This document shows, one piece after another, positions 25,242-42,283 of a DNA stretch of 64,000 bases. A model generated the notes under the pieces. The model searched no databases, was not told the DNA's origin, and was given only the letters and a program-made list of their open reading frames with translations. The stretch is taken from contig NZ_CP080269.1 in NCBI RefSeq assembly GCF_019431355.1, positions 558,001 through 622,000 of the forward strand, written 5' to 3'. A program made the position numbers and the translations under genes. The stretch's first letter is position 1, and each line of letters opens with the position of its first letter. This DNA comes from Paenibacillus sp. R14(2021) (GTDB lineage: Bacteria; Bacillota; Bacilli; Paenibacillales; Paenibacillaceae).

Positions 25242-25260
25242 TGTTGGTTGCCTCCGCTCA

Positions 25261-25282
25261 CAAATCCGTATGTACGGATTTG
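25261..25282. promoter_or_regulatory. 22-bp palindrome upstream of lysR
   Basis: Arms CAAATCCGTA and TACGGATTTG are perfect complements separated by TG. The position just upstream of the ribosome-binding site fits an autoregulatory operator or a leader hairpin. Confidence 0.55.
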
Positions 25283-25476
25283 CTATCTGATCTATGTATA
25301 GTTGATTGCACTCCTATGTATTATACAGGATAACAAGACTTACGTAAGCCTAAACGCATCGTATAGGGGCGTGACAGTCGCTGATCGCTAAGATGTCATG
25401 TCCAGAGCGTTATCGATGCGGCATGCTTGCTGTTGACATCGCCTCATGGTGTCATCCAATTAAAGCTTGCCATTAA

Positions 25477-25523
25477 AGAAGCTGTCCTGTGCGCATCATT
25501 GAATGATGACAGGGACAGCTTCT
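25477..25523 (-). terminator. Probable terminator of the glutamate-synthase-like gene
   Basis: AGAAGCTGTCC and GGACAGCTTCT form an 11-bp stem with an inner ATCATT/ATGAT helix. It lies 38 bp past the minus-strand stop at 25561; the T-tract on that strand is weak. Nothing else is visible in the 25283-25560 gap. Confidence 0.55.
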
Positions 25524-25560
25524 ATTTCGCGAGTGGCGAATTCCTCTCCTTAAGGGATAC

Positions 25561-27135: not shown

Positions 27136-27273
27136 GCGTAAACCCTCCAGTAGACGATAGATGATATGCAATGAGCAGGAGCAGGTATATCTTACCACGA
27201 ATCCGTAAAATCATTCATGACGACTATGATTGACCCTGGAAGCATGGGTAGCGGTCTCGCGGAAAAAAAATTC

Positions 27274-27287
27274 GGAATGATCGTTCC
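27274..27287. promoter_or_regulatory. TetR operator, copy at the tetR promoter
   Basis: GGAATGATCGTTCC is a nearly perfect 14-bp palindrome 8 bp upstream of a TTGTTT-17-TAATAT promoter (27296-27324) for tetR. It matches GGAATGCTCATTCC before the SDR gene at 27973. Confidence 0.65.
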
Positions 27288-27340
27288 TTAAAGTATTGTT
27301 TTCTGACGTTCCCTATAGTAATATGTGTGCAGGGGATGAG

Positions 27341-27910
27341 ATGCCAATGGCTAGAACAAAGGAATTTAATATCGATGATGCAATCGAGAAAGCAATCCAA
27401 GTGTTCAGAGCGAAAGGCTATGAAGGCACCTCGATGCAGGACCTGGTGGACGCACTCGGACTGAGTCGAAGCAGCATTTATGAAACCTTTGGCAGCAAGA
27501 AGGACCTATATCTATCGGCCTTAGACCGTTACGGAGACAGCACAAGTGAATCACTCACCGCTGTTCTTTATGAAGCGGGTCCAACGAGAGAATTGCTCCT
27601 TCGCTTCTTCGATAAATTCATTGCGCATAATACGCCTCATAGCTGTTTGATGGTGAATGCATCTTTGGAAATGTGCGATCATGCCGACGTTTCGGCAAGA
27701 GTGCAGGCATCAATGGCGGGCAATGAACGTGCTTTCTACCAATTGCTGACTCGCGCTATGTCGAATGGCGAGCTGAAGGGCAGCCCTAATTTACGTGCCT
27801 TGTCGAAATATCTCGTGAATGTGAGAAACGGGATCACCGTCTCTGCTTCCGCAATGGACCGGTCGTCGTTAGATCATATCGTAAAGATGTCACTCACCTT
27901 TTTAAAGTAA
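27341..27910 (+). CDS. TetR-family transcriptional regulator
   Basis: This 189-aa regulator has the TetR helix-turn-helix GTSMQDLVDALGLSRSSIYETFGSKKDLY (about residues 30-58) and an all-helical effector domain with a C-terminal pattern like YxaF/AcrR-group members. ATG 27341 lies 5 nt after AGGGG; ATG 27347 is the alternative. GGAAnnnnnnTTCC palindromes precede both this gene and the next, 62 bp downstream, so it likely represses itself and the SDR until an organic or electrophilic ligand binds. Confidence 0.88.
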   Translation: MPMARTKEFNIDDAIEKAIQVFRAKGYEGTSMQDLVDALGLSRSSIYETFGSKKDLYLSALDRYGDSTSESLTAVLYEAGPTRELLLRFFDKFIAHNTPHSCLMVNASLEMCDHADVSARVQASMAGNERAFYQLLTRAMSNGELKGSPNLRALSKYLVNVRNGITVSASAMDRSSLDHIVKMSLTFLK

Positions 27911-27928
27911 TTTTTTTTGACCTTTTTC

Positions 27929-27942
27929 GGAATGCTCATTCC
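27929..27942. promoter_or_regulatory. TetR operator, copy before the SDR gene
   Basis: GGAATGCTCATTCC (14 bp) lies between tetR and the SDR start, next to TTGACC and GATAAT elements. It differs from the tetR-promoter copy at two positions. Confidence 0.65.
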
Positions 27943-27972
27943 CGATAATTTAGTTAAGGAGATGCAAACCAT

Positions 27973-28725
27973 ATGACAACACAAACAAATTCACTGACGG
28001 GTAAAGTAGCATTCGTAACCGGAGGTTCCCGCGGTATTGGAGCCGAAATCGTGAAGCGTCTCGCTTCGGACGGTGCAGCCGTAGCGTTCACCTATGCAAG
28101 CGCGGAACAGAAGGCAGCCGAATTAGTGAAAGAGATCGAAGCGGCAGGCGGTCGTGCGCTAGCTATTCGTGCAGACAGCGCGAATGTACATGAAGTTAAG
28201 GACGCGGTAGACGAAGCGGTGAAGGTATACGGCGGCGTTAATATTCTGGTCAATAATGCCGGTCTGCTTCTCACGAAGCCTTATCATGAATTCACGACAG
28301 AAGAATTCGATCAGATGGTTGCCGTTAACGTACGTGCCGTATTCGCAGCCGTGCAGGCGGCGGGTCCGCTTATGGGCGAAGGCGATCGCATTATTACGAT
28401 CGGCAGCGTTAATGCGGATTCGAGTGGCTTCCCGGGAATGAGCTTGTATTCCATGTCCAAAGCTGCTGTAGCCGGTCTTACTCACGCTCTGGCACGGGAT
28501 TTGGCGCCTCAGGGCGTAACGGTAAACAACATTCAACCGGGTCCGATTAATACCGATATGAACCCCGCTGACGGCCCAAATGCGCCGTTCCTTAACTCGC
28601 TTATGGCGCTTGGCCGTTACGGCAAAACATCCGAAATTGCGAGTCTGGTCGCATACCTGGCATCGCCGGATGCAGCATTTATCACGGGTGCGTCGATCGA
28701 CATTAACGGCGGATTCATGATCTAA
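27973..28725 (+). CDS. Short-chain dehydrogenase/reductase (FabG-like)
   Basis: This 250-aa classical SDR has the NAD(P) motif TGGSRGIGAE (about residues 16-25), NNAG, the catalytic Ser region TIGSVNADS, Tyr-Lys in YSMSKAAV and the C-terminal TGASIDINGGF. These enzymes reduce or oxidise carbonyl groups; the substrate is not evident. It follows tetR and carries a TetR-like operator, typical of a small inducible detoxification pair. AAGGAG precedes ATG 27973 by about 12 nt. A terminator follows. Confidence 0.9.
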   Translation: MTTQTNSLTGKVAFVTGGSRGIGAEIVKRLASDGAAVAFTYASAEQKAAELVKEIEAAGGRALAIRADSANVHEVKDAVDEAVKVYGGVNILVNNAGLLLTKPYHEFTTEEFDQMVAVNVRAVFAAVQAAGPLMGEGDRIITIGSVNADSSGFPGMSLYSMSKAAVAGLTHALARDLAPQGVTVNNIQPGPINTDMNPADGPNAPFLNSLMALGRYGKTSEIASLVAYLASPDAAFITGASIDINGGFMI

Positions 28726-28742
28726 TTCTTTCTATCGTTTGC

Positions 28743-28788
28743 GGGCCGCCGATCATCTGAACCATCAGGTGAACGACGGCCTTTTTCT
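28743..28788 (+). terminator. Terminator of the tetR-SDR pair
   Basis: GGCCG and CGGCC enclose a second helix (TCATCTGA / TCAGGTGA), followed by TTTTTC. Confidence 0.65.
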
Positions 28789-28915
28789 TATGTGCTCGTG
28801 GATCGTGGAAATTCGAAAAACAGTTATTCGCGTACTTCCTATCATTTGGATCTTGCATATGCTGGTTTAAGAGAATCAAGTAGACAAGCAAATACGAGTT
28901 TCGAAGGATGATAGC

Positions 28916-30544
28916 ATGCCGCGCACACCGTTAGCCAGATTGCTTCGAGAGATATATGTGGTTGCAAACTTATCCAAGGAGAAGAAACAACCGATCGGGC
29001 ATATCCTGCACGAACAGCAGGATCGCCGCAAAGTCATACTCCAACGTATGAGAGAGACGAAGCTTGAACAAGAGGATAGCGCATTGGTTCCGCCAGAAAC
29101 ACCAGACCCCCGAAAGGCAGAGGTTCATGGACAAGCAGCTGTCGCGCCGCGTATCGTCATCATCGGAGCCGGCCTTGCCGGATTGGCTTGCGCCTATAGA
29201 CTGAAGCAAGCCGGTATTAACGCGATGCTGTACGAAGCCGACGACAAGCCGCATGCCGGACGTGTAAGCACCCGGTACGGCGAATTCGATGAAGGACAAA
29301 TCGCCGAGCGCGGAGGGATGCTCATCGATACCGGACATCGGGCCGTCATTCGATTGGCGCGTGAATTGGGGCTTCGATTGACCGATTTACTCGCAGCAGA
29401 AGCAGCCGGTACGGAGCCGCGGTATTTTTTTGACGGCGGGGCGTATACGTTCACCGAAGCGGCGGAGGACTTTAAATCGATTATGAACAAGCTGAACCGG
29501 GATACGAAGCAAGCGGGGTATCCTACGTTGTACAATCGATACACGCAGCATGGGTTCCAGCTCGACCAACTGTCCGTTATCGATTGGATCAATTTGAACG
29601 TTCCCGGCGGCACGCAATCGAAATTCGGCAGACTGCTGGATATCGCCTGCAACATTGAATACGGCGCGGAATCCAGCGTTCAGAGCGCGCTGAATTTTAT
29701 TTATTTGCACGGATTTCTGGCGGAAGAGGATGCTTTTCGCATGTTTGGCCTCTCCGATGAGCGGTTTCATATACGCGGCGGCAACGAGCAGCTGATCCAT
29801 CGATTGAGCACCAAGCTGGATGAAGCGAATATCGTTCGCGGGACGCGGCTGACAGCCATCGCCGAACAATTGGACGGGAGCTATAAGCTGACGTTCCAAC
29901 GCGATTCCGCAAGCATGGATGTGATCGCGGATAAGGTCGTGCTGACCGTGCCGTTCAGCATCCTGCGTTCTTCCGTCGATATAAGCAAGGCCGGGTTCAA
30001 ACACCTCAAACGCCAAGCGATTCAAGAGCTCGGCATGGGGATCAACAGCAAGCTGCATCTGCAATTCACCGACCGTCACTGGCAGTCGCTGCATGCGAAC
30101 GGCGACACGATCGCCGATACGGGTTACCAGAACACATTCGATGTCGTACGCGGACAGCCGGGGACAGCAGGCATGTTGGTTGATTACACGGGAGGGCGTA
30201 TCGGCGAGGGCATGGTTACAGGAACGGCTGATGAGCGGGCCATCCAGTTTCTGCAGCAGATCGAACCCGTGTTACCTGGGCTCAGCGGGAAATGGAACGG
30301 GAAGGCGGCCAGGGATTACTGGCTGGGCAATCCCTATTCCCTTGGATCCTATTCCTTTCGCAAAATCGGGCAGTATACGGCATTCGCCGGCGTGGAAGGG
30401 GAGCGGGAGGGGGCTGGCGGGAATTGTCACTTTGCCGGAGAACACACGTCCATTGCATTCCAAGGGTACATGAACGGAGCGGTTGAGAGCGGAGAACGAG
30501 CGGCCAAAGAAATTGTTCAAGACATGAAGAAGCGAAAACCATAA
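28916..30544 (+). CDS. Flavin-dependent amine oxidase family protein
   Basis: This 542-aa FAD protein has the dinucleotide motif IVIIGAGLAGLACAYRL (about residues 77-95), EADDKPHAGRV, ERGGMLID and the C-terminal FAD motif HFAGEHTS...GYMNGAVESGERAA. This is the flavin monoamine oxidase/L-amino-acid oxidase build. The first ~75 residues are a charged, helical extension before the Rossmann fold, without a clear signal peptide. Substrate unknown. The start ATG at 28916 has only a weak AAGGATGATAG site. It is monocistronic between two terminators. Confidence 0.85.
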   Translation: MPRTPLARLLREIYVVANLSKEKKQPIGHILHEQQDRRKVILQRMRETKLEQEDSALVPPETPDPRKAEVHGQAAVAPRIVIIGAGLAGLACAYRLKQAGINAMLYEADDKPHAGRVSTRYGEFDEGQIAERGGMLIDTGHRAVIRLARELGLRLTDLLAAEAAGTEPRYFFDGGAYTFTEAAEDFKSIMNKLNRDTKQAGYPTLYNRYTQHGFQLDQLSVIDWINLNVPGGTQSKFGRLLDIACNIEYGAESSVQSALNFIYLHGFLAEEDAFRMFGLSDERFHIRGGNEQLIHRLSTKLDEANIVRGTRLTAIAEQLDGSYKLTFQRDSASMDVIADKVVLTVPFSILRSSVDISKAGFKHLKRQAIQELGMGINSKLHLQFTDRHWQSLHANGDTIADTGYQNTFDVVRGQPGTAGMLVDYTGGRIGEGMVTGTADERAIQFLQQIEPVLPGLSGKWNGKAARDYWLGNPYSLGSYSFRKIGQYTAFAGVEGEREGAGGNCHFAGEHTSIAFQGYMNGAVESGERAAKEIVQDMKKRKP

Positions 30545-30572
30545 ATAACGGAAAGATAGCTGTAATAACGAG

Positions 30573-30612
30573 TAACCGGTTCCTGCATGCAGCGGGAGCC
30601 GGTTATTTGTTG
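30573..30612 (+). terminator. Terminator of the amine oxidase gene
   Basis: TAACCGG-TTCC pairs with GGGA-GCCGGTTA around a 9-nt loop and is followed by TTTGTTG. Confidence 0.65.
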
Positions 30613-30761
30613 TAATTCGATCAAAAGTACGCGGGAAATTGTCATTTCTTTGGGTATTTTTTCGGTTAGAACTTGTTCAAGGCTATTCGAACATGTCATA
30701 ATAAATAAAGTAATGTTCTTGTCATCAATTTGAAAACATATGAAAGCGGGAATCGAACACA

Positions 30762-31481
30762 ATGGGTCGTAAATGGAACAACATTAAAGAAAAGAAAGCT
30801 TCGAAGGATGCCAATACAAGCCGTATATATGCGAAATTCGGTCTTGAAATCTATGTAGCCGCCAAGAAAGGCGAGCCGGACCCGGAATCCAACCAAGCGT
30901 TGAAATTCGTTCTGGAGCGCGCCAAAACGTATAATGTACCACGCGCCATTATTGACCGTGCCATCGAGAAAGCGAAGGGCAGCTCCGACGAGAACTACGT
31001 TGAACTGCGTTACGAAGGCTTTGGCCCGAACGGATCGATGGTGATCGTGGATGCACTGACGAATAACGTGAACCGTACAGCGCCGGAGGTCCGCTCCGCA
31101 TTTACGAAGAATGGAGGCAGCATGGGCGTCAGCGGCTCTGTATCGTATATGTTTAATTCAACAGCAGTCTTCGGCGTGGAAGGCAAAACCGTCGATGAAG
31201 TTCTCGAGCTGATGATGGAAGCCGACGTGGATGTACGCGATATTACCGAAGAGGACGAAGCGGTAATTGTATATGCGGAGCCGAATCAATTCCAAGCCGT
31301 ACAGGACGCATTCAAGCAAGCGGGAATAACAGAGTTCACAGTTGCGGAGCTGACGATGCTTCCTCAGAACTATGTGGAAATTCCGGAAGAGTCCCAAGCA
31401 CAGTTCGAAAGACTCATCGATATGCTGGAAGACCTAGAGGATGTGCAGCAGGTCTATCATAATGTAGAATTTGGCGAGTAA
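30762..31481 (+). CDS. YebC/PmpR-family protein
   Basis: This 239-aa protein begins [17 protein letters not shown] and contains [20 protein letters not shown] and [14 protein letters not shown], all hallmarks of the YebC/YeeN family. Family members have been described as transcriptional regulators and, more recently, as factors that help ribosomes through difficult stretches such as polyproline. It is the YeeN-like form found in Firmicutes. The ribosome-binding site (AAAGCGGG) is weak. It stands alone with a terminator 36 bp downstream. Confidence 0.9.
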
Positions 31482-31516
31482 TTTTTTTTACCGCTAAAAA
31501 TAGGAAGAATGATTAC

Positions 31517-31545
31517 AAAAGCCGCAGGTTTGCGGCTTTTTATTT
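31517..31545 (+). terminator. Terminator of the YebC-family gene
   Basis: AAAAGCCGCA-GGT-TTGCGGCTTTT followed by TATTT. Confidence 0.8.
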
Positions 31546-31705
31546 GCAAATGCATAAGAAAAGAGACAATATCATCCAGATGCGCTAAGATAATAGTAAA
31601 TAATTTTGTTCATTCATCTAGCAGGCATTGTGAAAATTTTGTCGAATTTTTAAGAAATAAGAGATGATATTGCTTCTATTACAAAGGTTTGAGGTGCCAG
31701 CAGGG

Positions 31706-33628
31706 ATGATGCTAAAAATAGTTTTTAGACTATTGATTATTTTCATTGGTTTGGTCGGCGTTGGACCAAGCATCGCTCAAGGGGCGTCAAATGCCGCGAG
31801 CGATAACGAAATTACATCTTGGCAGATTCGCTGGGAGCGCGCATCGGAAAAAACAGCGTCTCCTGAACAAGCAGCTGGTGCCGGAGAATGGCAGACCATT
31901 CACATGCAACATCCCCTTATAACAAAACCGGATGAAACTGTTTCTGCATGGGTGAAATTTAAGCTGCCTAAACTGAATAATAATGAAGGCTTGTTCTTTC
32001 CTTTAGTTTACGGGCAGACAGTAACTGTTTATAAGAGCGGACAAGTGTTGTTCCACTCGGAACGTAAGTACTGGTTCGACATTAATCGCGTTTTGATCCC
32101 GCTGTCGGAACAAGATTCCGGTAAAGAAATTTATTTTCAGCTGCAGAGTGATACGGATCGTTTAGGCTTGGGAGCCGGAATGGAGATCGGAGATTATCAG
32201 AATCTTGTCCGATCGTATTCGAAATACGATATACTCGATATTATTATCGGCAGCGCTTTTATTTTCGTGGCACTTGTTATGTTGGTTTGCTCCGTGTTTC
32301 TTGTCCGCAATCAGCTCAAAAGTTGGATTTCGTTATGCTTCATTATTTTACCGATCGGTGGAATTTTGATTGGCTACTCCCCATTCTTGTATACCTTCTA
32401 CGGTCAATATGGGTATATTTATTTAGCAATTTTCGATATCTCCCTGTACATTTTCTTACCAGCACTGATGTTTTTCTTCGAATTGGTATTCGGCAGCGGC
32501 TATCGCAATATCGTATCGTATTTCCGACGATTTCAAATCTATTATTCCATCTTTGGCCTTATCTTTTTAGCTGTTAACCGTATGTCAGCGGATAAATTCC
32601 AACATGCATACTTTTTCGTTTCGGTTACTTTCATAGGCTTAATTATGATTGTGCAATTTATACTTATTCTAGGTATTCTTCTTCAACAATTGTTAAGGAA
32701 AAATATCGATTCCATTATCCTTTCAACAGGGCTTGCGATTTTTGCGATCGTAAGCATAGCTGAGTTATTGAAATTTTATGCATCCTCGCAAACCTATAAT
32801 TTGTCCTGGTGGAAATGGGGACTCGTTGCGTTTGTGCTCTCCCTTATTATTCTTCTTGGCCGCAGATTTACTTACCAGCATAAGCTGATCGTAACGTATT
32901 CTAGAGATTTAGAGATCTATAATCTTGAACTTCAGCGATCGGAGAAAATGGAAATTATCAGTCAACTGGCTGCTTCAGTCGCCCACGAGGTTCGCAACCC
33001 GCTGCAGGTGACGCGCGGCATGCTTCAATTGTTAGGAGAGCGTAACACTTACTCAACAAGAGAAGGCGAATACTATAAGCTTGCCATTGATGAGCTCGAT
33101 CGCGCATCGACAATTATTACGGATTTCCTTACCTTTGCCAAACCGCAGCTTGAGCAAGTGATTGAGCTTAATTTAGCCGAAGAAATCAAACATGTTGAGG
33201 GCATTATCGTACCGCTTGCAAATCTTCAGGGCGGTCGAATTGAAATCAATGTGCCTAAGACGTTGATGATTATCGGGAATTCTTCCAAGCTTAAACAAGC
33301 GTTGATCAATATCATCAAGAACAGTATAGAGGCTTTGGAAGGCGACGGAAGTGTTCGCGTTTGGGCTTACCAGGAGAAGGAGCACGTTGTTATTCATATC
33401 GCAGACAGCGGCAACGGGATGGATGAGCGAATTCTTGCCCGGCTCGGTGAACCGTATTTTTCTAATAAAACAAAAGGTACGGGTCTAGGGCTGATGGTTA
33501 CGTTTCGGATTATTGAAGCCATGCAAGGGACGATTGAATTCAAGAGTCAGAAGGGAATTGGAACGGAAGCAACGATTCGCTTTCCTATTGCAAGCGTTGA
33601 AAAAACAAACGCGAAGGTCCCTATGTGA
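31706..33628 (+). CDS. Multi-TM sensor histidine kinase
   Basis: This 640-aa kinase has a signal-like N-terminal helix, an extracytoplasmic domain of about 165 residues, then seven or so TM helices (about residues 195-395) and a cytoplasmic kinase. The H-box is SVAHEVRNPLQVTRGMLQLL and the ATPase motifs are IIKNSIEAL, DSGNGMDE and GTGLGLMVTFRI. The layout recalls 7TMR-type sensors, and the kinase core resembles sporulation kinases. No cognate regulator is adjacent. ATG 31706 follows GAGGTG; ATG 31664 lacks a good site. The gene lies in an AT-rich island and converges on the NHLP-leader peptide gene, so it could sense that product, but this is inference. Confidence 0.85.
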   Translation: MMLKIVFRLLIIFIGLVGVGPSIAQGASNAASDNEITSWQIRWERASEKTASPEQAAGAGEWQTIHMQHPLITKPDETVSAWVKFKLPKLNNNEGLFFPLVYGQTVTVYKSGQVLFHSERKYWFDINRVLIPLSEQDSGKEIYFQLQSDTDRLGLGAGMEIGDYQNLVRSYSKYDILDIIIGSAFIFVALVMLVCSVFLVRNQLKSWISLCFIILPIGGILIGYSPFLYTFYGQYGYIYLAIFDISLYIFLPALMFFFELVFGSGYRNIVSYFRRFQIYYSIFGLIFLAVNRMSADKFQHAYFFVSVTFIGLIMIVQFILILGILLQQLLRKNIDSIILSTGLAIFAIVSIAELLKFYASSQTYNLSWWKWGLVAFVLSLIILLGRRFTYQHKLIVTYSRDLEIYNLELQRSEKMEIISQLAASVAHEVRNPLQVTRGMLQLLGERNTYSTREGEYYKLAIDELDRASTIITDFLTFAKPQLEQVIELNLAEEIKHVEGIIVPLANLQGGRIEINVPKTLMIIGNSSKLKQALINIIKNSIEALEGDGSVRVWAYQEKEHVVIHIADSGNGMDERILARLGEPYFSNKTKGTGLGLMVTFRIIEAMQGTIEFKSQKGIGTEATIRFPIASVEKTNAKVPM

Positions 33629-33640
33629 CCTTCGCGTTTG
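33606..33640. terminator. Bidirectional terminator between the kinase and the peptide gene
   Basis: CAAACGCGAAGGTC and GACCTTCGCGTTTG form a perfect 14-bp stem that overlaps the last codons of the kinase gene and ends 23 bp before the peptide gene stop. Confidence 0.8.
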
Positions 33641-33662
33641 TATATGTAATGGGGTTGATATT

Positions 33663-33899
33663 TTACCAAACCTCTTCGACACCATCCGATTTGGATGCAT
33701 CACCTGGGTTTTGAGGAATAACCAAAGCTACTTTGGATTCCGATTCTTCCACGACAATAATTTCTACGTCATCCGGCAAAATCAGGCCAAAAGCTTCATT
33801 TAACGCGCCTTTTGGATCAGCTAGCAGCTTAGCTTTGAAAGATTCGTCCGACCAGGCTTTTTCAATAATTTGCTGTTTTAATTCTTGTTCCTGACTCAT
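33663..33899 (-). CDS. NHLP-leader RiPP precursor peptide
   Basis: This 78-aa peptide matches the nitrile-hydratase-alpha-like leader family: IIEKAWSDESFKAKLLADP (residues 11-29), then LPDDVEIIVVEESESK and VALVIP near residue 61. The remaining 17 residues, QNPGDASKSDGVEEVW, are acidic, lack Cys, and end in Trp. In NHLP natural-product systems the conserved part is a leader and the variable tail is the modified core. Here no double-glycine cleavage site is obvious. AGAGGTG precedes ATG 33899. It lies 124 bp downstream of an isoprenoid-fold enzyme gene on the same strand and has its own probable promoter. A prenylated or methylated tail is plausible. Confidence 0.85.
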   Translation of the reverse strand: MSQEQELKQQIIEKAWSDESFKAKLLADPKGALNEAFGLILPDDVEIIVVEESESKVALVIPQNPGDASKSDGVEEVW

Positions 33900-33932
33900 T
33901 GATGAACACCTCTTCGATAGGGATATAATACC

Positions 33933-33944
33933 AGTCCTAGTGTA
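33933..33944 (-). promoter_or_regulatory. Shared promoter motif before the peptide gene
   Basis: Plus-strand AGTCCTAGT (33933-33941), read leftward as ACTAGGACT, overlaps a -10-like TACACT. The same nonamer lies beside TATACT upstream of the methyltransferase gene (35765). ACAATAG occurs 13 bp upstream here and 10 bp upstream there. Confidence 0.45.
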
Positions 33945-34023
33945 CCATTAAGTGAGACTATTGTTCTACTATTATTTGATAAAATACGACAAAATGTGTG
34001 TAAATAGGACGGTATAACCAATT

Positions 34024-34956
34024 TCACCTTATCGTAGACAACAAACGAGAAAATCCACCATCAAGATGCAGCCTTTTGTTACGGTCGATTGAAGAGGCTT
34101 CGATGGTTAATTGATCACGAAGATGAGCCTGAAAGGCATTTAAATGGGGGATTGACACGTTCAAGCTCAGACTAAGTACGCAGTTTTCGGCAGCAAGCTG
34201 TGCGTACCGATTTAATGCGCCATTGAGGTAAATGGCGTTTTTGATTTCGACGATTGTCATAGGAACCGCAGGAGTTGATTGTTGTTCTAGGGCGATCATG
34301 TTTAATAAGCTGTTAGCGGTGTTTAACGCGAAGTCTTCTTCCCAATCCGAATAGTCGTCCGAAAGCTGCAACGTTGCAAGCGTGAGATCAATTGCACAGG
34401 TAGTCTCTTGTTCGAGTTCTAGCTTTCCTGCTAGCAGCAGCGCTCCGGTACTCGCCAATTTGACAGGAGACGCTTTAAGCGCGAGTTGCTGCATATCAAT
34501 CGGATGTGAATAGCCGGTATTCTCGCTGGATACCGCAATCGACCATTCCGTTACATAGGTACGATAATAGCTCCAGAAGGGCGATTGATGATGGAATAAG
34601 GATTGGTAAAGCTCAAGCATCGATAGTTGAAACAAATTGCCGAGTGCAAGCTGGTTTTTCCAATCTTCCGGAGCGGTGTCCATTAAGTCATCCTGAATGA
34701 AGAAGTAAAGCATGACAAATACGTTGGCCAGTGAAAGCTTACGGTAATGCTCCGGTTGAAGTTGGGTGATCGGTTCCATCCAGTAAGGGAGCAGATAGCA
34801 AATATAGTTCTTGGTGCCGGCTGGGTTCAACGGATTGAAAGCCTTCAAGTAATTCAAGCCAAGTTCATTCAGAGACGCGGGATATGCTCCGATGCGGGCT
34901 TCCGCTTCATTGAAAACGAGTTGCATTTCTTGTTCATACTCCGTTTTCCATAGCAT
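34024..34956 (-). CDS. Class I isoprenoid-fold enzyme, possible peptide prenyltransferase
   Basis: This 310-aa all-helical protein has two aspartate-rich motifs: QDDLMD (DDxxD at 89-93) and SDDYSDWEED (DDxxD at 200-204). Paired DDxxD motifs bind the Mg-diphosphate of a prenyl donor in polyprenyl synthases and in ComQ, which prenylates Trp of the ComX pheromone. Overall similarity to housekeeping polyprenyl synthases is low, so a specialised role is likely. It could instead be a small terpene synthase. It is the second gene of a methyltransferase-isoprenoid enzyme pair (7-bp gap), directly upstream of the NHLP-leader peptide. AGAGGATGATTCAGCA precedes ATG 34956. The gene is AT-rich relative to the window. 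Confidence 0.7.
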   Translation of the reverse strand: MLWKTEYEQEMQLVFNEAEARIGAYPASLNELGLNYLKAFNPLNPAGTKNYICYLLPYWMEPITQLQPEHYRKLSLANVFVMLYFFIQDDLMDTAPEDWKNQLALGNLFQLSMLELYQSLFHHQSPFWSYYRTYVTEWSIAVSSENTGYSHPIDMQQLALKASPVKLASTGALLLAGKLELEQETTCAIDLTLATLQLSDDYSDWEEDFALNTANSLLNMIALEQQSTPAVPMTIVEIKNAIYLNGALNRYAQLAAENCVLSLSLNVSIPHLNAFQAHLRDQLTIEASSIDRNKRLHLDGGFSRLLSTIR

Positions 34957-34963
34957 TGCTGAA

Positions 34964-35734
34964 TCATCCTCTCTGATCTATCTTCATGGTTAATGCGAAC
35001 ATACCAACCTGATAGGAGGCATCTTCGTTCGTTAACCAGCCGTCTAGTTCCCGGTTTCGTTCGTTCTTCAATCCATCGCGCTGCATGAGTTCCGTAACCG
35101 TCCCCATATAACGGTGCAATAGCTTTCGCGAATCGGACTCGGCAGCATTTATGCGGTAAGTCTGCATCGCAGCTTCGCTATACCCGGCTTGGATAGCGGC
35201 ATCGAGAATATGCTCGGCAACGGAGCCTGGGAACTTGTCCGTGATTGGCTTGCGGGAAGCACGGAAGAGTGCCTCAAACAGTGGTAGACCCTCAGCTGGC
35301 ACAGGGCCTGTCGCGGCATCCAGCAAATCTATGATTATGATGGTGGAGTCTTTGTGCGTAACAGATCGCAGCCAATCCAAGAAGTGAGGCAAATCGGGCA
35401 GATGAGGGACGACGAGCCTGGATATGACGAGGTCGAAAGGCTCTTTACCCTTGAAATTCTTATAGTCATCGCGAATGAAATCAAGTCCCGGCATGCTGCG
35501 TGTTTCGGCATAAGCAAAGATTCGCTCGTCTTTCTCAAGACCCGTACAGCGAAGATGCGGGTAGTGCTGCTTGATCTCCGCTAAGTAGGAGCCGTTTCCG
35601 GAACCGATGTCCAGTACGGATGACGCAGACTGAAGTCGTTCACGCAAGATTAGCTTTTCTTCCTGCTGGTAAAACAGTTCTGTCGTCAGGTTCAGCATGT
35701 CGTTGAACAGACGCGCGGAGTCGATGGCGCTCAT
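34964..35734 (-). CDS. Class I SAM-dependent methyltransferase
   Basis: This 256-aa methyltransferase has motif I LDIGSGNGSYLAEI (41-54), the acidic end of beta2 (GLEKDE) and DLVISRLVVPHL as motif II. The family uses S-adenosylmethionine; the acceptor is not readable. As first gene of the leftward unit with the isoprenoid-fold enzyme it may methylate the prenyl donor, the peptide core or a released terpenoid. AAGGATATGCAGCC precedes ATG 35734. Its promoter shares a nonamer with that of the peptide gene. Confidence 0.82.
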   Translation of the reverse strand: MSAIDSARLFNDMLNLTTELFYQQEEKLILRERLQSASSVLDIGSGNGSYLAEIKQHYPHLRCTGLEKDERIFAYAETRSMPGLDFIRDDYKNFKGKEPFDLVISRLVVPHLPDLPHFLDWLRSVTHKDSTIIIIDLLDAATGPVPAEGLPLFEALFRASRKPITDKFPGSVAEHILDAAIQAGYSEAAMQTYRINAAESDSRKLLHRYMGTVTELMQRDGLKNERNRELDGWLTNEDASYQVGMFALTMKIDQRG

Positions 35735-35764
35735 GGCTGCATATCCTTCCCTGAATAAGAAATT

Positions 35765-35782
35765 AGTCCTAGTTCCAGTATA
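35765..35782 (-). promoter_or_regulatory. Shared promoter motif before the methyltransferase gene
   Basis: AGTCCTAGT (35765-35773) and a leftward TATACT -10 (35777-35782), with CGACAATAG further upstream, mirror the elements before the peptide gene. Confidence 0.45.
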
Positions 35783-35836
35783 CCGTCAGGATCTATTGTC
35801 GAACAATGGGGAATGTCTTTACGAGGGTGATTTGTT

Positions 35837-35865
35837 TTGACGCTCTTGGTCGAATCACCTATGAT
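35837..35865 (+). promoter_or_regulatory. SigA-type promoter of the Ecs-like operon
   Basis: TTGACG and TATGAT are separated by 17 bp. The start point would be near 35872, giving a leader of about 185 nt that contains a terminator-like hairpin. Confidence 0.7.
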
Positions 35866-35937
35866 AGGGATATGCAAATGTTGCCGCGGATCGTTATTTG
35901 AAATCTTGAATCGTAAATGTCCACCTCGAATACAGTA

Positions 35938-35966
35938 CTGCCGCCTATTGGCGGCAGTTTGCTTTT
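35938..35966 (+). terminator. Terminator-like hairpin in the leader of the Ecs-like operon
   Basis: CTGCCGCC-TATT-GGCGGCAG is a perfect 8-bp stem followed by TTTGCTTTT. It sits between the promoter at 35837 and the ABC gene at 36059, so it may act as an attenuator. Confidence 0.55.
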
Positions 35967-36058
35967 GCCAGGAAGCTCGGCAGATGCAGATCTCGTATGA
36001 TATCGTTGCAGAAATGAAGCAGATTGAATAGCGGCGCAAGCCGGATGGAGGTTAAGCC

Positions 36059-36760
36059 ATGCAAGTGCTTGAAGTAGATATTCGCAAGGCGGGGTATTCC
36101 GCGGAAGATCCGGTTATTCGGAATATAGGTTTTTCCATTGGCGCAGGAGAGTTAGTCGGCTTGATCGGACCGAACGGAGCAGGCAAGAGCACCACGATCA
36201 AATCGCTGCTTGGTCTCATCCGCTACGTGGACGGCCAGATGACGTTCGGCGGCGAGCAGGGGCGATATGCCTATGTGCCGGAACAGCCAGTACTCTATGA
36301 ATATATGACGCTGTGGGAGCATCTTCAGCTTGCCGCTTCCGCTTATGAGCTTGACGAGTCAACGTTTCACGAGCGGGCGGAGGCGATGCTGGAGCGGTTC
36401 CGTCTGTCGGATGAGCGCCATAAGCTGCCGACAGGCTTCTCGAAGGGCATGCAGCAGAAGATGATGCTGATCATCGGCTTCCTGCTGAAGCCGGATGTCT
36501 ATGTCGTAGACGAGCCCTTCGTCGGCTTGGATCCGCGCGCGACGAGGGACTTCCTGGAGCTGCTGCAGGACGAACGCCGGCGTGGCGCAGGCGTATTGAT
36601 GTGCACGCATGTGCTTGATACTGCTGAGAAAATTTGTGACCGCATCATTCTCATCAACAGCGGTTCAATCGTTGCCCAAGGAACGCTGGCGGAGGTCAGA
36701 GAGCAGTCGGGCTGTGCGGTGGATGCGCCGCTAACGGATTGCTTCTACGCGCTGACTTAA
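36059..36760 (+). CDS. ABC transporter ATPase, EcsA-like
   Basis: This 233-aa ATPase has Walker A GPNGAGKSTT, the signature FSKGMQQKM, Walker B VYVVDEPFVGLDP and the switch His in CTHVLDTAEKICDR. EcsA-type ATPases work with an EcsB membrane partner and affect secretion, regulated proteolysis and stress in Bacillus; the transported substrate is not settled. GGAGG precedes ATG 36059. It is 11 bp upstream of its permease partner. The leader carries a terminator-like hairpin. Confidence 0.85.
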   Translation: MQVLEVDIRKAGYSAEDPVIRNIGFSIGAGELVGLIGPNGAGKSTTIKSLLGLIRYVDGQMTFGGEQGRYAYVPEQPVLYEYMTLWEHLQLAASAYELDESTFHERAEAMLERFRLSDERHKLPTGFSKGMQQKMMLIIGFLLKPDVYVVDEPFVGLDPRATRDFLELLQDERRRGAGVLMCTHVLDTAEKICDRIILINSGSIVAQGTLAEVREQSGCAVDAPLTDCFYALT

Positions 36761-36771
36761 GGAGGATGCAT

Positions 36772-38034
36772 GTGAATCAACAATATAGCAAATGGACGAA
36801 TGCCGTACTGTTTAGACGAAGACTGCGGCGGTTTTGGATGGAGCAATGGAAGGTATGGCGCACCGCGCTCGACTGGACGGTATGGCTTTACTTCATCGTA
36901 CCAGGATTGTGGCTTGGGGGCGGCTCCTACCTGGATATCTGGCATCATCCTGCATCATGGTTAACGGGCATGCCGATATGGACAGGTGAACGCTTGCCGC
37001 TGTTCGTGATTTTCCTGGGCAGGCTGCGCACCTTTACCGAAGAAGCGGATGTACTGTTCCTGCTGCAGAAACAAACATGGGGGAGAGGGCTGAAGCTTAG
37101 AGGGTTTGGCTACACGGCTTGTATGCTGCTCTTGTTAACGTTAATTGTTTATGCGCTGCTGCTTCCTTTCTTCGTTGTCGTGCATCATTTTACGGCAGCA
37201 TCCCTAGCGGTTATGGTCATCTATACCTGGATATGGGCCTGCATGGGTGCGGTATGGAGAAATAGGTTGGAGGCCCGCTACTCCGGTTATCTGAAGTGGG
37301 CGGTCAAGCTCGCCGCCATGCTTCTATTGGCTGTCACCTATCTGATCCCGATGATTGTGCTCGGTTCGGAGCCGCTGGATCTGATCGTTCCGATCTGCGT
37401 GGGCCTTGTGGTGCTAATCCTCCTCATGAGGTCGAAGCTGCGGGCAAGAGATATGTTTGACTCCGATGTTCAACAAGAACAGCTGGCTCGGCTGGCCAGC
37501 ACGCAGCTGCTGCTAAGAAACGTAATGACGCGCAAACCGAGGATTCGCATGACTCGCCCGGTCGTTTTTCGCCACTCCAACCGTTTGTTTAAACGGTTTC
37601 AGAGCGATGCCGTTCTCGCCGAAATGATCATCAAATCGTTCGTTCGCAGGCTGCCGCTCATTCGGACCTGGCTCATCTTTACGGTCATTTCCGCCGTGGC
37701 TGTCCTGCTGTCGCCTACGGTGCTGAAGCCATTCCTGCTCATCGTACTGGCGCTGCTGCTGTCTTCCTGGGTCGTTTCCCATTGGCGGAGTATGCTGGCC
37801 GAACCGTACTTTGCTCAATTCAAATGGTCGGACCATGCGCTTCGGGAATCGTCCGGGCTCGTTCGCTTCTGGCTTGTCGTCCCGTCTGTCTTCTTGATGT
37901 CACTGATTACCGGCTTGCAGGATTATGGAGGCTGGGGCGTGCTGGCTGTCGTACCGAGCGTGTTCATATGGATCGGCCTCAGCAAATTTCTGAGTACGAT
38001 GGTGCTGCTCAAGGCACGGCCTAAAGGCGAATAA
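36772..38034 (+). CDS. ABC transporter permease, EcsB-like
   Basis: This 420-aa protein has the EcsB outline: FRRRLRRFWMEQWKVWRTALDW in the cytoplasmic N-terminus, then about ten TM segments in groups (residues 35-60, 110-165, 180-215, 305-345, 370-410). GTG 36772 is preferred because GGAGG (36761-36765) lies 6 nt upstream; an in-frame ATG at 36766 touches that site. It pairs with the EcsA-like ATPase. No peptidase or scaffold gene accompanies it. Confidence 0.8.
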   Translation: MNQQYSKWTNAVLFRRRLRRFWMEQWKVWRTALDWTVWLYFIVPGLWLGGGSYLDIWHHPASWLTGMPIWTGERLPLFVIFLGRLRTFTEEADVLFLLQKQTWGRGLKLRGFGYTACMLLLLTLIVYALLLPFFVVVHHFTAASLAVMVIYTWIWACMGAVWRNRLEARYSGYLKWAVKLAAMLLLAVTYLIPMIVLGSEPLDLIVPICVGLVVLILLMRSKLRARDMFDSDVQQEQLARLASTQLLLRNVMTRKPRIRMTRPVVFRHSNRLFKRFQSDAVLAEMIIKSFVRRLPLIRTWLIFTVISAVAVLLSPTVLKPFLLIVLALLLSSWVVSHWRSMLAEPYFAQFKWSDHALRESSGLVRFWLVVPSVFLMSLITGLQDYGGWGVLAVVPSVFIWIGLSKFLSTMVLLKARPKGE

Positions 38035-38206
38035 CGATAATCCAACCATTGCCTGCCGCGAGGTGCGGTTGTGAATTCATCTGTTCTTGAGCAAGGTTGA
38101 ACTTAGAGGGGAATCCAAGCTTCTCTTGAATGAGCCGGTTGCGGCGCTTTCGCCAGCCAGGCAGCTGGACAGCGAGATCTAATGGATATAAAGGAGTGCA
38201 GCCGCA

Positions 38207-38617
38207 ATGAGAATAATCGCCGCAACGATTTCGGACTATGCTTACATTAGAGAGCATGACCGTCATATCATTGAAAAATTAATCTTACCTAAAATTAGGC
38301 AGAACGAGATTTACATCCTTCAGCATGAAAGCGAAATGAATGTGGGGTGGATGCGTTACGGTTACTTTTGGGATAACACGCCTTTTATGAATATGATTTG
38401 GATAGACGAAGCGCATCGTAACAGAGGATTCGGCAAGAAAGTCGTTCTCTTCTGGGAGGAAGAAATGAAGAAGATGGGATTTACATGCGTAATGACCTCT
38501 ACCTTGGCCAATGAAGAGGCGCAGCACTTTTACAGAAAACTAGGTTATCGCGATTCGGGCTGCTTGATTCTTGAAGAAGAGCCATTGGAAATTCTTCTTA
38601 CGAAGTCACTGAAGTAA
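38207..38617 (+). CDS. GNAT-family N-acetyltransferase
   Basis: This 136-aa acetyltransferase shows the GNAT acetyl-CoA motif as IDEAHRNRGFGKKVVLFWEEE (about residues 66-86) and the late motif NEEAQHFYRKLGY. Family members acetylate small amines, antibiotics or protein N-termini; nothing indicates which. AAAGGAG precedes ATG 38207. It is a single gene. Confidence 0.85.
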   Translation: MRIIAATISDYAYIREHDRHIIEKLILPKIRQNEIYILQHESEMNVGWMRYGYFWDNTPFMNMIWIDEAHRNRGFGKKVVLFWEEEMKKMGFTCVMTSTLANEEAQHFYRKLGYRDSGCLILEEEPLEILLTKSLK

Positions 38618-38719
38618 CGGCCGCGCGGCAAAAGGTCTTGGATAGGCCGTTGACGAAATAAATCGAGAAACAAGCTTCGGGCAAATCGGTATTGAAAATG
38701 AAACTGGGGATGATGAAGC

Positions 38720-40573
38720 ATGAATGACAGGCTTCGCTGGCGAAACTATTTATTGAAAACGAAGATGTTCATTGTGTTCGCTGCAACATCCCTGTTTATC
38801 GTCGCGCTGACCTGCCTTATTTTTTACCTTAAGAATGTAAACGATTTCAAGGCACAGACGATCGCGTTGTCCGATACGATTACGCGTCAGTTCAGCCGGA
38901 CCTTCGAGCTGTACGTGCAGGACATCGAGCGGCTGTCGGTCTCCATCATCGGCGACCCCGTCATTCAGCAGAGCCTCATTGACCACTACAAATCAACGGA
39001 CGAGGTGGAGCAGAACCAGATCGAGCTGCAGGTCAACAACCGATTATTCTCGCATTTACAGCCGCGTCCGCAGCTTCAGAGCATCTATATTTTCTCCTTG
39101 GACAACTTCGCGTATTTCATCTCTAAAGCAAGCGGACCCAAAACCAGCTTCCATCTGCGCGACGAATCCTGGTACGCGTACCGGGACGCCGTTCTTCGGA
39201 ACAAATTTCTTCTGCTGCCGGTCACCGAAGAGGATACGGGCGGCGACCGCAAAGCCCAGGTCATCTCGTTCGTCCGCAACATTAACCGTATTCCTTACCG
39301 CGAAATATCCGCCTATATGAAAATCAACATCAACGTCAGCATCTTCAAATCCATGCTCGTCAATTCCGACGCCAACGAAGTGGAACGAAATATGAGGGTG
39401 TTCATTGTGACGGACGACGGACATATCGTTTACGATGACCGGGACAAGCTGACGGGACAGATCGACGCGGAACTTGGACTGTCCGCATTCCGTCCCTCGG
39501 GACGCTCCGGCGAGCTGGTTTGGCAGGGTCAACCGTATCTGTACACGATGGAGAAGTCGGCCTATACCAATTGGAATACGGTCATCCTCATTCCGAACGA
39601 ATTCCTATTGTCGAAGCAGAAGAAAGCACAATATATCCTGCTGCTCGTCGGTCTGCTCGCCACGCTGCTCATTGCTATTGTCTCCTATGTCCTGTCGCAT
39701 CAGATTACCCTGCCGCTTCGTTCCATGATGAAGAAAATGTCGCGCGTCGAGCTGGGCGATCTGAGCCAGCGGATGACCGTGCAGGGCAGCGATGAGATCG
39801 GCCGTCTGAGCCGAATCTACAACAACATGCTGGACAGTATCTCCCGTCTGATCTCCGAGGTATACGAATCCAAGCTCGCGGAGAAGAACGCCCAATTGTC
39901 GGCGCTGCAGGCGCAGATCAATCCGCATTTTCTGTATAATACGTTGAATATCATGAAGTCGATCAGCCGCATTCGGGGCATTGAAGAGGTGGCCGAGATG
40001 TCGGAATCGCTGGCCGAATTGTTCCAATACAGCATGAAGAACCTGCAGCACCCCGTGCCGCTGCGGGATGAGCTCGACCACATCCATAATTATATGAAAA
40101 TCCAGCAGCACCGCTTCAGCAATCGGTTCGATCTGTCCACCGATATCCCGGACGAGCTGCTGGACGCCTCCGTGCTCAAGCTCACCATACAGCCGCTCGT
40201 TGAGAATGCAGTCATTCACGGACTCGGCAAAGTGAAAGCGGGGGGATGCATCGACATTCGCGCGCGCAGGCGCAAGGGCATGCTCATCGTGGAGGTGTCC
40301 GACAACGGCGCCGGCATGGACGGGAATCGGCTGCACGAGCTCCAGCACACCCTTCGGTATCCCGGACGGCTGTTCGATCCGATGGAGGAGCCGAATGGTA
40401 TTGGACTGCGAAACATCGGCCAGCGGCTGCAGTTGCTGTACGGAGAGAATTGCGGGATCGAACTGGCCGGCAATGCTGGAGGCGGATTAACGGTGCGGCA
40501 CACGTTGCCTTACCAGCGGTACGATCACAAGGAAGGAGAGACGGTCAATGAATATCTTCCTCGTCGAGGATGA
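38720..40573 (+). CDS. YesM-type sensor histidine kinase
   Basis: This 617-aa kinase has a TM segment at about 17-37, a large extracellular sensor domain, a second TM at about 305-325, HAMP (LPLRSMMKKMSRVELGDLSQ), and the His_kinase core QINPHFLYNTLNIMKSI, with ATPase motifs VENAVIHGL, DNGAGM and GIGLRNI. YesM kinases in Paenibacillus usually sit beside ABC sugar porters and sense carbohydrate or binding protein. GGGGATGATGAAGC precedes ATG 38720. It overlaps the regulator gene by 26 bp. Confidence 0.92.
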   Translation: MNDRLRWRNYLLKTKMFIVFAATSLFIVALTCLIFYLKNVNDFKAQTIALSDTITRQFSRTFELYVQDIERLSVSIIGDPVIQQSLIDHYKSTDEVEQNQIELQVNNRLFSHLQPRPQLQSIYIFSLDNFAYFISKASGPKTSFHLRDESWYAYRDAVLRNKFLLLPVTEEDTGGDRKAQVISFVRNINRIPYREISAYMKININVSIFKSMLVNSDANEVERNMRVFIVTDDGHIVYDDRDKLTGQIDAELGLSAFRPSGRSGELVWQGQPYLYTMEKSAYTNWNTVILIPNEFLLSKQKKAQYILLLVGLLATLLIAIVSYVLSHQITLPLRSMMKKMSRVELGDLSQRMTVQGSDEIGRLSRIYNNMLDSISRLISEVYESKLAEKNAQLSALQAQINPHFLYNTLNIMKSISRIRGIEEVAEMSESLAELFQYSMKNLQHPVPLRDELDHIHNYMKIQQHRFSNRFDLSTDIPDELLDASVLKLTIQPLVENAVIHGLGKVKAGGCIDIRARRRKGMLIVEVSDNGAGMDGNRLHELQHTLRYPGRLFDPMEEPNGIGLRNIGQRLQLLYGENCGIELAGNAGGGLTVRHTLPYQRYDHKEGETVNEYLPRRG

Positions 40574-42101
40574 ACGATGGGCGCTGGCAGAGCTGGTGGA
40601 ATTGTTCAAGCGCTATCAGCCCGCCCACAGCATCCATGCTTTCAGCAACGGAGAGGACGCGCTGCTCGCTGCGGCGACGGTCCCCCCGCACCTCGTGCTA
40701 ACCGACATCACGATGCCGGGTATGGACGGCCTTGAACTAATCGAGGCGCTGATCGGCTTATATCCGGATGCGAAGGGGATCGTGCTCAGCGTTCACGACC
40801 AGTTCGCTTATGCGCAGCGGGGCGTGAAGCTTGGCGTAATCGATTATCTGCTGAAGCCGGTTAAGAAGGACGTGCTCTACAACGCAATCGACCGGGCGCT
40901 GCAGAGCATCGCCGATGACTCTAGGAAGAACGACGACCGCGCCTGCTGGTCGCTCATGCAGCAGATGCTTACCGCGGATGCAGCGAATCACTTAATCGCC
41001 GATACGCTTATGGATAAGCGTTATGGCATGGCGCTGATTCAGATCGACATCAAGCCCGCCTCTGCCGAGTCCGGGGACTCTGGTGCTGGACTTCGTACAG
41101 ACGAGCTGAAGTCGCACTTTCGCCATCCCCGCCTGCGCGACCAAGAGCTGAACTGCATGACGATCGACCCGAGACGCAAAGTAATCCTAGCGCCTGCGCC
41201 AGACGACGAATTAGCGGGAGCCTTTCGAGTCGGCCTTGCTCAGCTGTATGGCAGGTTAACGCGGACGGGGATGCAAGCGCATGTCGGGTACTGCTTTAAG
41301 GAGGCAGCGAAAAGTCTGAACGGATGCTATGAAGGGCTGTTGAAGACATTCGAATCGCGGCTGAGATTCGGACAATCAACGTGGATCGAGCCTGAGCCGC
41401 AGGCGCGCAGCGAGAAGGGGCAGCTTCCCGAACTATCCGCCGTATGGGAGAAGGTTCGCGTCCTCCAAATACACCTTAAACAGGGTGATATGCTGAAAGG
41501 AAGGGAAACAATCCAGAAAATCGCTAGCGAGCTTAGCAGGAGGGACATGACCGTGAAGCAGCTGACGCTGTTCGTGAATGACCTGTTCTACTCGCTGAAA
41601 TACAACCTTCAGGCATCCTCGCGAAGCGAGATCAACCTCGGCAAGCTGCAGGAAGATATCAGCACCATGAGTGCGTTTACCACGTATGAGCAATTGACGC
41701 GCTGGTTGACCGATAAGACGTTCGCGCTCATTGGTGAGCATGTGCCGATCGATCCGAACCCGAAGGGGCTTGTTCCCGTCCTTATGAATTGGATTCATGC
41801 GAACTATCCGAACGACTTATCATTGCAGAAATTCGCGTTCGACAATCATATCAGCTTAAGCTATCTATCGAGACTTTTTAAGTCTCAGACCGGCTTCACT
41901 TTCTCCGATTATTTAATCCGCCACCGAATCGCCAAGGCGAAGGAACTGCTGAATGAAGGCGGTGCGCGGCTGTCCGATGTAAGCAGTCTGGTCGGCTACG
42001 AGGATGCGAAGCATTTCAGCCATTTATTCAAAAAAATCGTGGGCGAGAGCCCTCATGCCTACACGAAACGAAAAAAGGAAAATTCACCCCCCCAATTCTG
42101 A
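40548..42101 (+). CDS. YesN-type response regulator, AraC DNA-binding domain
   Basis: This 517-aa regulator has a receiver domain (EDE near residue 7, phospho-acceptor Asp in VLTDITMPGMDG, Lys in LLKPVKK), a long central helical linker and a C-terminal AraC-type double helix-turn-helix (LSYLSRLFKSQTGFTFSDYLIRHRI, then LVGYEDAKHFSHLFKK). AAGGAGAG precedes ATG 40548. It should activate the ABC importer genes that start 183 bp downstream when phosphorylated by the YesM partner. Confidence 0.92.
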   Translation: MNIFLVEDERWALAELVELFKRYQPAHSIHAFSNGEDALLAAATVPPHLVLTDITMPGMDGLELIEALIGLYPDAKGIVLSVHDQFAYAQRGVKLGVIDYLLKPVKKDVLYNAIDRALQSIADDSRKNDDRACWSLMQQMLTADAANHLIADTLMDKRYGMALIQIDIKPASAESGDSGAGLRTDELKSHFRHPRLRDQELNCMTIDPRRKVILAPAPDDELAGAFRVGLAQLYGRLTRTGMQAHVGYCFKEAAKSLNGCYEGLLKTFESRLRFGQSTWIEPEPQARSEKGQLPELSAVWEKVRVLQIHLKQGDMLKGRETIQKIASELSRRDMTVKQLTLFVNDLFYSLKYNLQASSRSEINLGKLQEDISTMSAFTTYEQLTRWLTDKTFALIGEHVPIDPNPKGLVPVLMNWIHANYPNDLSLQKFAFDNHISLSYLSRLFKSQTGFTFSDYLIRHRIAKAKELLNEGGARLSDVSSLVGYEDAKHFSHLFKKIVGESPHAYTKRKKENSPPQF

Positions 42102-42283
42102 CAAATCCGCAGGTGTCAAGGCCAGCTGGCTCCATCTAAAATAAGGGTAAAGGGAGCCCGGGCCCTTGGCAGTACGCTCCTCATTGCAAGCGCATACATC
42201 CAATCATTTTGAAATATCGAGGGGTCCGTAAGGAACGGCTGACGATGTCAAAAAAACAGACCGATTAGGGAGGATGTTCAAGA

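Follow-up and report, generated by a model that had tools for sequence, protein, structure and literature searches.

A palQXP-type locus with an accessory methyltransferase in Paenibacillus, and the case for a prenylated-tryptophan peptide signal

The window, a 64,000-nucleotide stretch of the genome of Paenibacillus sp. R14(2021), contains three neighboring genes that a sequence-only reading had singled out as a possible peptide-modification cassette. We confirmed all three open reading frames, each on the minus strand, and refer to them here as M, Q, and X in the order in which they run. A fourth gene, P, absent from the sequence-only reading, belongs to the same unit as Q and X. The features of the locus are:

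31664..33628, plus strand: P, a PalP-like membrane histidine kinase of 654 aa with HisKA and HATPase_c domains, the presumed receptor
33605..33641, no strand assigned: terminator-like hairpin of 15 pairs between the convergent X and P genes, scored on the minus strand
33663..33899, minus strand: X, a precursor peptide of 78 aa with an NHLP leader (TIGR03793) and Trp as its last residue
33666..33668, minus strand: codon of the terminal Trp of X, the presumed prenylation site (from sequence)
34024..34956, minus strand: Q, a PalQ-like Trp prenyltransferase of 310 aa with a trans-prenyl-synthase fold, assigned from its modeled fold and conserved residues
34345..34359, minus strand: second Asp-rich motif of Q, DDYSD (D200–D204), in invariant columns
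34678..34692, minus strand: first Asp-rich motif of Q, DDLMD (D89–D93), with D89 and D93 invariant in 29 sequences
34964..35734, minus strand: M, an accessory SAM methyltransferase of 256 aa (Methyltransf_23), the first gene of the M-Q-X run

The end of M lies 7 bases from the start of Q, and P is convergent with X, with 34 bases between the ends of the two genes; the hairpin in this region (33605–33641) is terminator-like by its match to the consensus. X matches the NHLP leader model TIGR03793 with 72.3 bits (curated cut-off 50.9, E 2.2e-20), is the only match to that model in the whole genome, and ends in ...GVEEVW, which bears out the earlier description of a 78-aa NHLP-leader peptide ending in Trp. 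The descriptions of the other two products, a helical enzyme with two Asp-rich motifs and a SAM methyltransferase encoded on the same strand, held as well (the latter being of class I, with a match to Methyltransf_23 at E 4e-10). The M-Q-X run, convergent with P, is thus a palQXP-type locus with an accessory methyltransferase. Divergent from M are genes for an EcsA/EcsB-type ABC transporter (36059–38034; EcsB match E 8e-42), which we considered as an exporter and rejected, an ATPase of this family being found near Q in 3 of 41 loci; no exporter or protease linked to the locus was found. Farther along, a Cache-HAMP histidine kinase and an AraC-type response regulator are encoded in tandem (38720–42101) and are followed by a gene for a solute-binding protein (42284–43693), an arrangement that looks like an ordinary uptake two-component system.

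The genes of this locus closely resemble a system that is already in print. The paper by Miyata et al. (2023; PMC10853753) describes a P. alvei cluster consisting of PalQ, PalX (an NHLP precursor with a C-terminal Trp), and PalP (a histidine kinase), and states that the palQXP cluster is conserved across various Paenibacillus. According to the same paper, in vitro reactions show PalQ attaching a C5, C10, or C15 prenyl group to PalX at C3 of its C-terminal Trp, giving mass shifts of +68, +136, and +204 Da and a prenylated Trp in pyrroloindole form; alanines placed after the Trp abolish the reaction, and the PalQ residues singled out are D89/D93, D200/D204, and Q197 (PMC10853753). The shifts that the sequence-only reading had proposed to look for are the very ones published for PalQ. 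The window's locus shares with PalQXP an enzyme with an isoprenoid synthase fold and residues D89/D93, Q197, and D200/D204, an NHLP precursor with a C-terminal Trp, and an adjacent histidine kinase, whereas it has a dedicated fourth gene: PalQXP comprises three genes with no methyltransferase in the main text of the paper, where the word occurs once, concerning eukaryotes (PMC10853753). We conclude that the window's locus is a variant of the known PalQXP system and does not represent a new class; the proposal of an unusual class of modified peptide has to be given up, the chemistry having been in print since 2023 (PMC10853753). The main text of that paper contains no test of signalling through PalP, and among the open-licence papers that literature searches listed, none reported one in its title or opening abstract.

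The likeness of Q to PalQ is one of gene content and published residue numbers, read against an alignment that does not include PalQ. A degenerate pattern for the published core of PalQ (UniProt K4ZRG6) had no match in the genome contigs searched, nor among 19 genomes of the genus of G114. Searches with the window's copy of Q gave no match in Pfam at E 1, a single match at chance level in NCBIfam, and a single match among PDB sequences at E 1.7. Across the 29 members of the Q family, polyprenyl_synt was matched by 2 (best 0.003) and DUF5685 by 6 (best 1.2e-4), and the family profile reaches farnesyl synthases at E 0.041. A model of Q built from 29 homologues (pLDDT 91.8, almost all helix) aligned with polyprenyl synthase 4jyx over 273 residues (VIA-align Z 24.8, rmsd 2.6), and the 50 VIA-align matches listed were isoprenyl diphosphate synthases or entries that carry the name of an isoprenoid or polyprenyl synthase. 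As modeled, then, Q has a prenyl-synthase fold. In the window's numbering, D89, D93, Q197, D200, D201, and D204 are invariant among 29 aligned homologues, Q197 preceding DDYSD by three residues, and D90 is kept in at least 90% of them. The correspondence with PalQ, the fold, and these invariant residues support the suggestion that Q is a ComQ-like Trp prenyltransferase, just as the above-cut-off TIGR03793 score and the correspondence with PalX support the view of X as an NHLP-leader RiPP. By analogy with the published homologue, the terminal Trp of X is very likely prenylated.

The module formed by Q, X, and P is widespread. Q is present in 251 of 295 genomes of the family and TIGR03793 has matches in 259 of the 295 (254 of them above the cut-off), an occurrence far beyond chance. 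At the level of the order, Q is present in 123 of 198 genomes spread over four family codes, and in a draw of 398 genomes from the phylum it was found in 6, all from the window's own family. For the arrangement of the genes we assembled 40 stretches, the best 80 of 241 loci (nearly all Paenibacillus), and the window itself, and removed 17 of these 121 loci in which the last 200 residues of the enzyme were shared with another, leaving 104 distinct loci; X matches below 60 bits and kinases below 500 bits were left out of the counts. Because both locus sets were picked by a match to Q, they are uninformative on loci that lack it. X is present in 101 of the 104 loci, P in 101, and M in 20, so that the co-conservation sought for the three originally noted genes is found for Q and X and fails for the methyltransferase. 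X always lies on the strand of Q (108 of 108 X), in 95 of 101 loci no more than 500 bases separate the end of Q from the start of the first X, and 102 of the 108 X have a convergent P at a distance of up to 300 bases. In the three loci without X, one of which has Q at a contig end, another part of the assembly carries X and P next to each other.

According to 20 more stretches drawn from the order, Q, X, and P are kept together in other families, some with one P and between two and four X in tandem; P is missing from L201, which is cut by a contig end, and L205 has its X convergent with P yet on the strand opposite Q. In L215–L219, from genomes of family code f6, second copies of Q are accompanied by a single P and by one X or a tandem array of up to four, with one residue (S, N, or T) after the Trp; these copies are a diverged sister module. 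Tandem kinases of the P family occur after or around a single X in L085–L089, L129, L164, L172, and L181, which is receptor doubling without peptide doubling. Joint doubling of X and P is seen in L074, L153, L171, and L250, but we dropped joint duplication as a general pattern because the copy numbers differ in 21 of 24 loci with two P (which have one X) and in 4 of 7 loci with two X (which have one P).

In contrast to its leader, which has a median identity of 0.53 between loci, the tail of X is no more alike between loci than expected by chance, apart from its Trp. That residue lies within the last four residues in all 108 X and is the last residue in 81, with 1 residue after it in 24 cases, 2 residues in 2, and 3 residues in 1. 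As a control we examined 30 of 34 NHLP matches from 11 chosen genomes (4 were left out): none of the 25 located away from Q, two of which are one ORF and the weakest of which are doubtful members, has a Trp in its last four residues, whereas all five at Q loci do. The conservation of the Trp in the tails, on which the sequence-only reading had staked its case, is therefore upheld. The one to three residues that follow the Trp in 27 of the 108 X (e.g. L075, L095, L098, L099, and L100) are at odds with the strict requirement of P. alvei PalQ (PMC10853753); either the enzymes differ or the extra residues are trimmed. A P. terrae precursor that PMC7829367 classes as a proteusin bacteriocin may be the X of L125 and L128, two loci of that species.

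M is an accessory gene that is bound to the locus, as far as its genomic occurrence indicates, and the idea that it forms a core part finds no support in its presence in 20 of 104 loci. A profile built from 19 relatives placed M, at E 1e-25, in at least 22 of the 295 family genomes, with one copy in each and, among the matches listed, each copy at a Q/X locus. It lies directly upstream of Q in 19 of the 22 and directly upstream of X in the three in which X and Q are apart (G175, G046, and G188, the last with Q 17 kb away). Internal TAG codons are present in two copies of M (G207:C141:64744-65487 and G173:C10:200894-201640), and these copies are possibly decaying. None of 1000 permutations reached the agreement between distances among M sequences and those among Q sequences, and M undergoes 7 changes along the Q tree; together these argue that M is an old part of the locus that has been lost or gained several times. 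An exactly terminal Trp is found in 21 of 21 X at loci with M and in 60 of 87 at loci without (Fisher p 0.0015); we rejected this link as independent evidence, since on the Q tree, with 7 changes of M and 5 changes of Trp state, only 3 independent pairs fall on supported branches, too few for a test.

P has Pfam matches to HisKA and HATPase_c, and in the window's copy Pfam detects no PAS domain. Among 30 relatives of P, 19 match 7TMR-DISM_7TM and one matches 7TMR-DISMED2; the window's P matches neither (at E 1 for 7TMR-DISM_7TM), and its membrane helices were judged from relatives and by eye. Median identity of P falls outward, from 0.64 in the kinase through 0.38 in the membrane part to 0.26 in the outer part, and this, together with the diverse tail of X, is as expected of a ligand and a receptor that diverge. 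Partial correlations between the tail and P (0.09 for the outer part, 0.25 for the membrane part, and 0.20 for the kinase) were reached by none of 300 permutations. We nevertheless rejected this co-variation as proof of sensing, because the kinase co-varies with the tail about as well as the membrane part does, and more than the outer part, so that the pattern is not specific to sensing.

Across 41 loci, the neighborhood of P contains no conserved family of response regulators, and the nearest response regulator in the window, at 40548, follows a kinase of its own. The residues that specify the partner of a kinase were assigned, by a mapping of our own, to positions +7, +8, +11, +12, +14, and +15 after the phosphorylated His, which returns the KinA string from the H-box of KinA. 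By this mapping the residues of P read QVGFQL in 102 of 122 kinases (3 of 125 P without the H-box pattern were left out) and QVGMQL in the window's P. A table in PMC6136694 gives TAGFQL, TVGFQL, TSGFQI, TGGFQL, and TAGFQL for KinA to KinE of B. subtilis, and QVGFQL is close to the TVGFQL of KinB, with Q in the first position where these listed sporulation kinases have T. The xxG[FM]Q type is found in 7 of 30 HisKA kinases of the window's genome, P included (3 of 33 matches were left out). The specificity residues suggest, short of proof, that P may be linked to the sporulation phosphorelay. The arrangement of Q, X, and a convergent histidine kinase also lends support to the earlier idea of a pheromone-like layout; P, which that idea had been formed without, is the best evidence for signalling, and from the layout of the genes we consider signalling through P likely.

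ComQXPA of Bacillus likewise has an isoprenoid-synthase-like enzyme that prenylates a Trp of a small peptide and is encoded beside a membrane kinase. There the cognate response regulator, ComA, is encoded beside the kinase, whereas no response regulator is adjacent to P. The Trp of ComX is internal and ComQ is without the second Asp-rich motif, according to PMC10853753, whereas in the window's system the Trp is terminal, DDYSD is present with key positions invariant, the precursor has an NHLP leader, and the kinase is of the HisKA type. The window's system would work like ComQXP, with a peptide and a kinase of other families. Proteusins and other NHLP RiPPs share their leader with X, but X is without the GG before the tail that many NHLP matches unlinked to Q have. 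Proteusin clusters contain a radical SAM enzyme, and no radical SAM, LanM, or cyclodehydratase gene was found among the scanned neighbors from 24357 to 43693, as the sequence-only reading had also remarked. A looser analogy, and an analogy only, is to eukaryotic CaaX prenylation and carboxyl methylation, in which C-terminal prenylation is shared and possibly followed by methylation; the window has Trp in place of Cys, the enzymes are unrelated, and the target of M is putative.

Taken together, these observations lead us to favor, at a probability of about 75%, a ComX-like prenylated peptide signal with its receptor, in which Q prenylates the Trp of X, M is an accessory, and P reads the product. 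Q would bind the NHLP leader of X and, by extension from PalQ, attach what is probably a C10 or C15 prenyl group to the indole of the last Trp, at C3, after which the indole would close to a pyrroloindole as it does in vitro for P. alvei PalQ. Cleavage of the leader by a protease would release a short prenylated tail, variable in sequence from one species to another; M would probably methylate the peptide, for example at its C-terminal carboxylate or new N-terminus; and the modified peptide would leave the cell and be read by P, which, with no response regulator of its own nearby, would most likely feed the Spo0F phosphorelay. More tentatively, the module may constitute a signal common to the order Paenibacillales, a short prenylated-Trp peptide made by most of its species, methylated by a dedicated enzyme in a minority of lineages (the window's among them), and read by a 7TMR-DISM-like kinase feeding the sporulation phosphorelay.

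Alternatively, the product might be an antimicrobial lipopeptide, a bacteriocin, with P merely sensing the product or envelope stress for self-regulation or immunity. PMC7829367 lists Paenibacillus NHLP clusters as proteusin bacteriocins, and antimicrobial peptides prenylated by PalQ gain potency according to a 2026 review (PMC13290415), yet we regard this explanation as unlikely: conserved genes for immunity or export were not found across 41 loci, most loci encode a single short acidic tail, the module is all but universal among genomes of the family (251 of 295), and the peptide keeps with the kinase even where it is parted from the enzyme. Such breadth, and such constancy of peptide and kinase, would be more expected of a signal than of a weapon. 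Far less probable still is that Q makes a free terpene that M methylates, the NHLP peptide being an unrelated neighbor or a carrier only. A class I isoprenoid fold with both Asp-rich motifs would suit such an enzyme, but against it stand the closeness of X to the end of Q (500 bases or less in 95 of 101 loci), the conserved Trp at the end of X, the invariance in Q of the residues named for PalQ, Q197 included, and the action of PalQ itself on a peptide, as reported in PMC10853753.

The remaining alternative retains the prenylated peptide and concerns M, which might methylate the prenyl donor (GPP or FPP) before transfer by Q, yielding a C11 or C16 group. The best sequence match of M is a plant alkaloid N-methyltransferase (51.4 bits), and its relatives act on alkaloids, peptide N-termini (BpumL and BamL), C-termini (LahSb), small acids, and FPP, so that homology decides little about its substrate. 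In 19 of 22 genomes M immediately precedes Q, which would suit methylation of the donor, as would the kinship of M with the FPP methyltransferase VbFPPMT (35.7 bits); however, BpumL and BamL score as well or better (41–50 bits), LahSb and BpumL are within the first ten Foldseek rows for the model of M (pLDDT 93.6, class I fold), and M keeps with X in the three M-bearing genomes in which Q and X are apart. Methylation of the donor is thus improbable in our judgment, and the three genomes in which M accompanies X rather than Q tilt the balance toward the peptide as the target of M.

For the ComX-like reading that we prefer, what the survey adds to the published chemistry is a biological setting. 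The enzymology is known from one species, and the module proves close to universal in the family, its peptide keeping beside the kinase even after leaving the enzyme, while some lineages add a methyltransferase that, among the matches listed, is detected nowhere else in their genomes. What began as an account of an enzyme tool thereby becomes a directly testable hypothesis about signalling in a large group of spore-forming bacteria, one that names a receptor and points to a likely downstream route. If the hypothesis is true, a 7TMR-DISM-type receptor for a lipidated peptide would be of interest, as would a bacterial parallel to prenylation followed by methylation.
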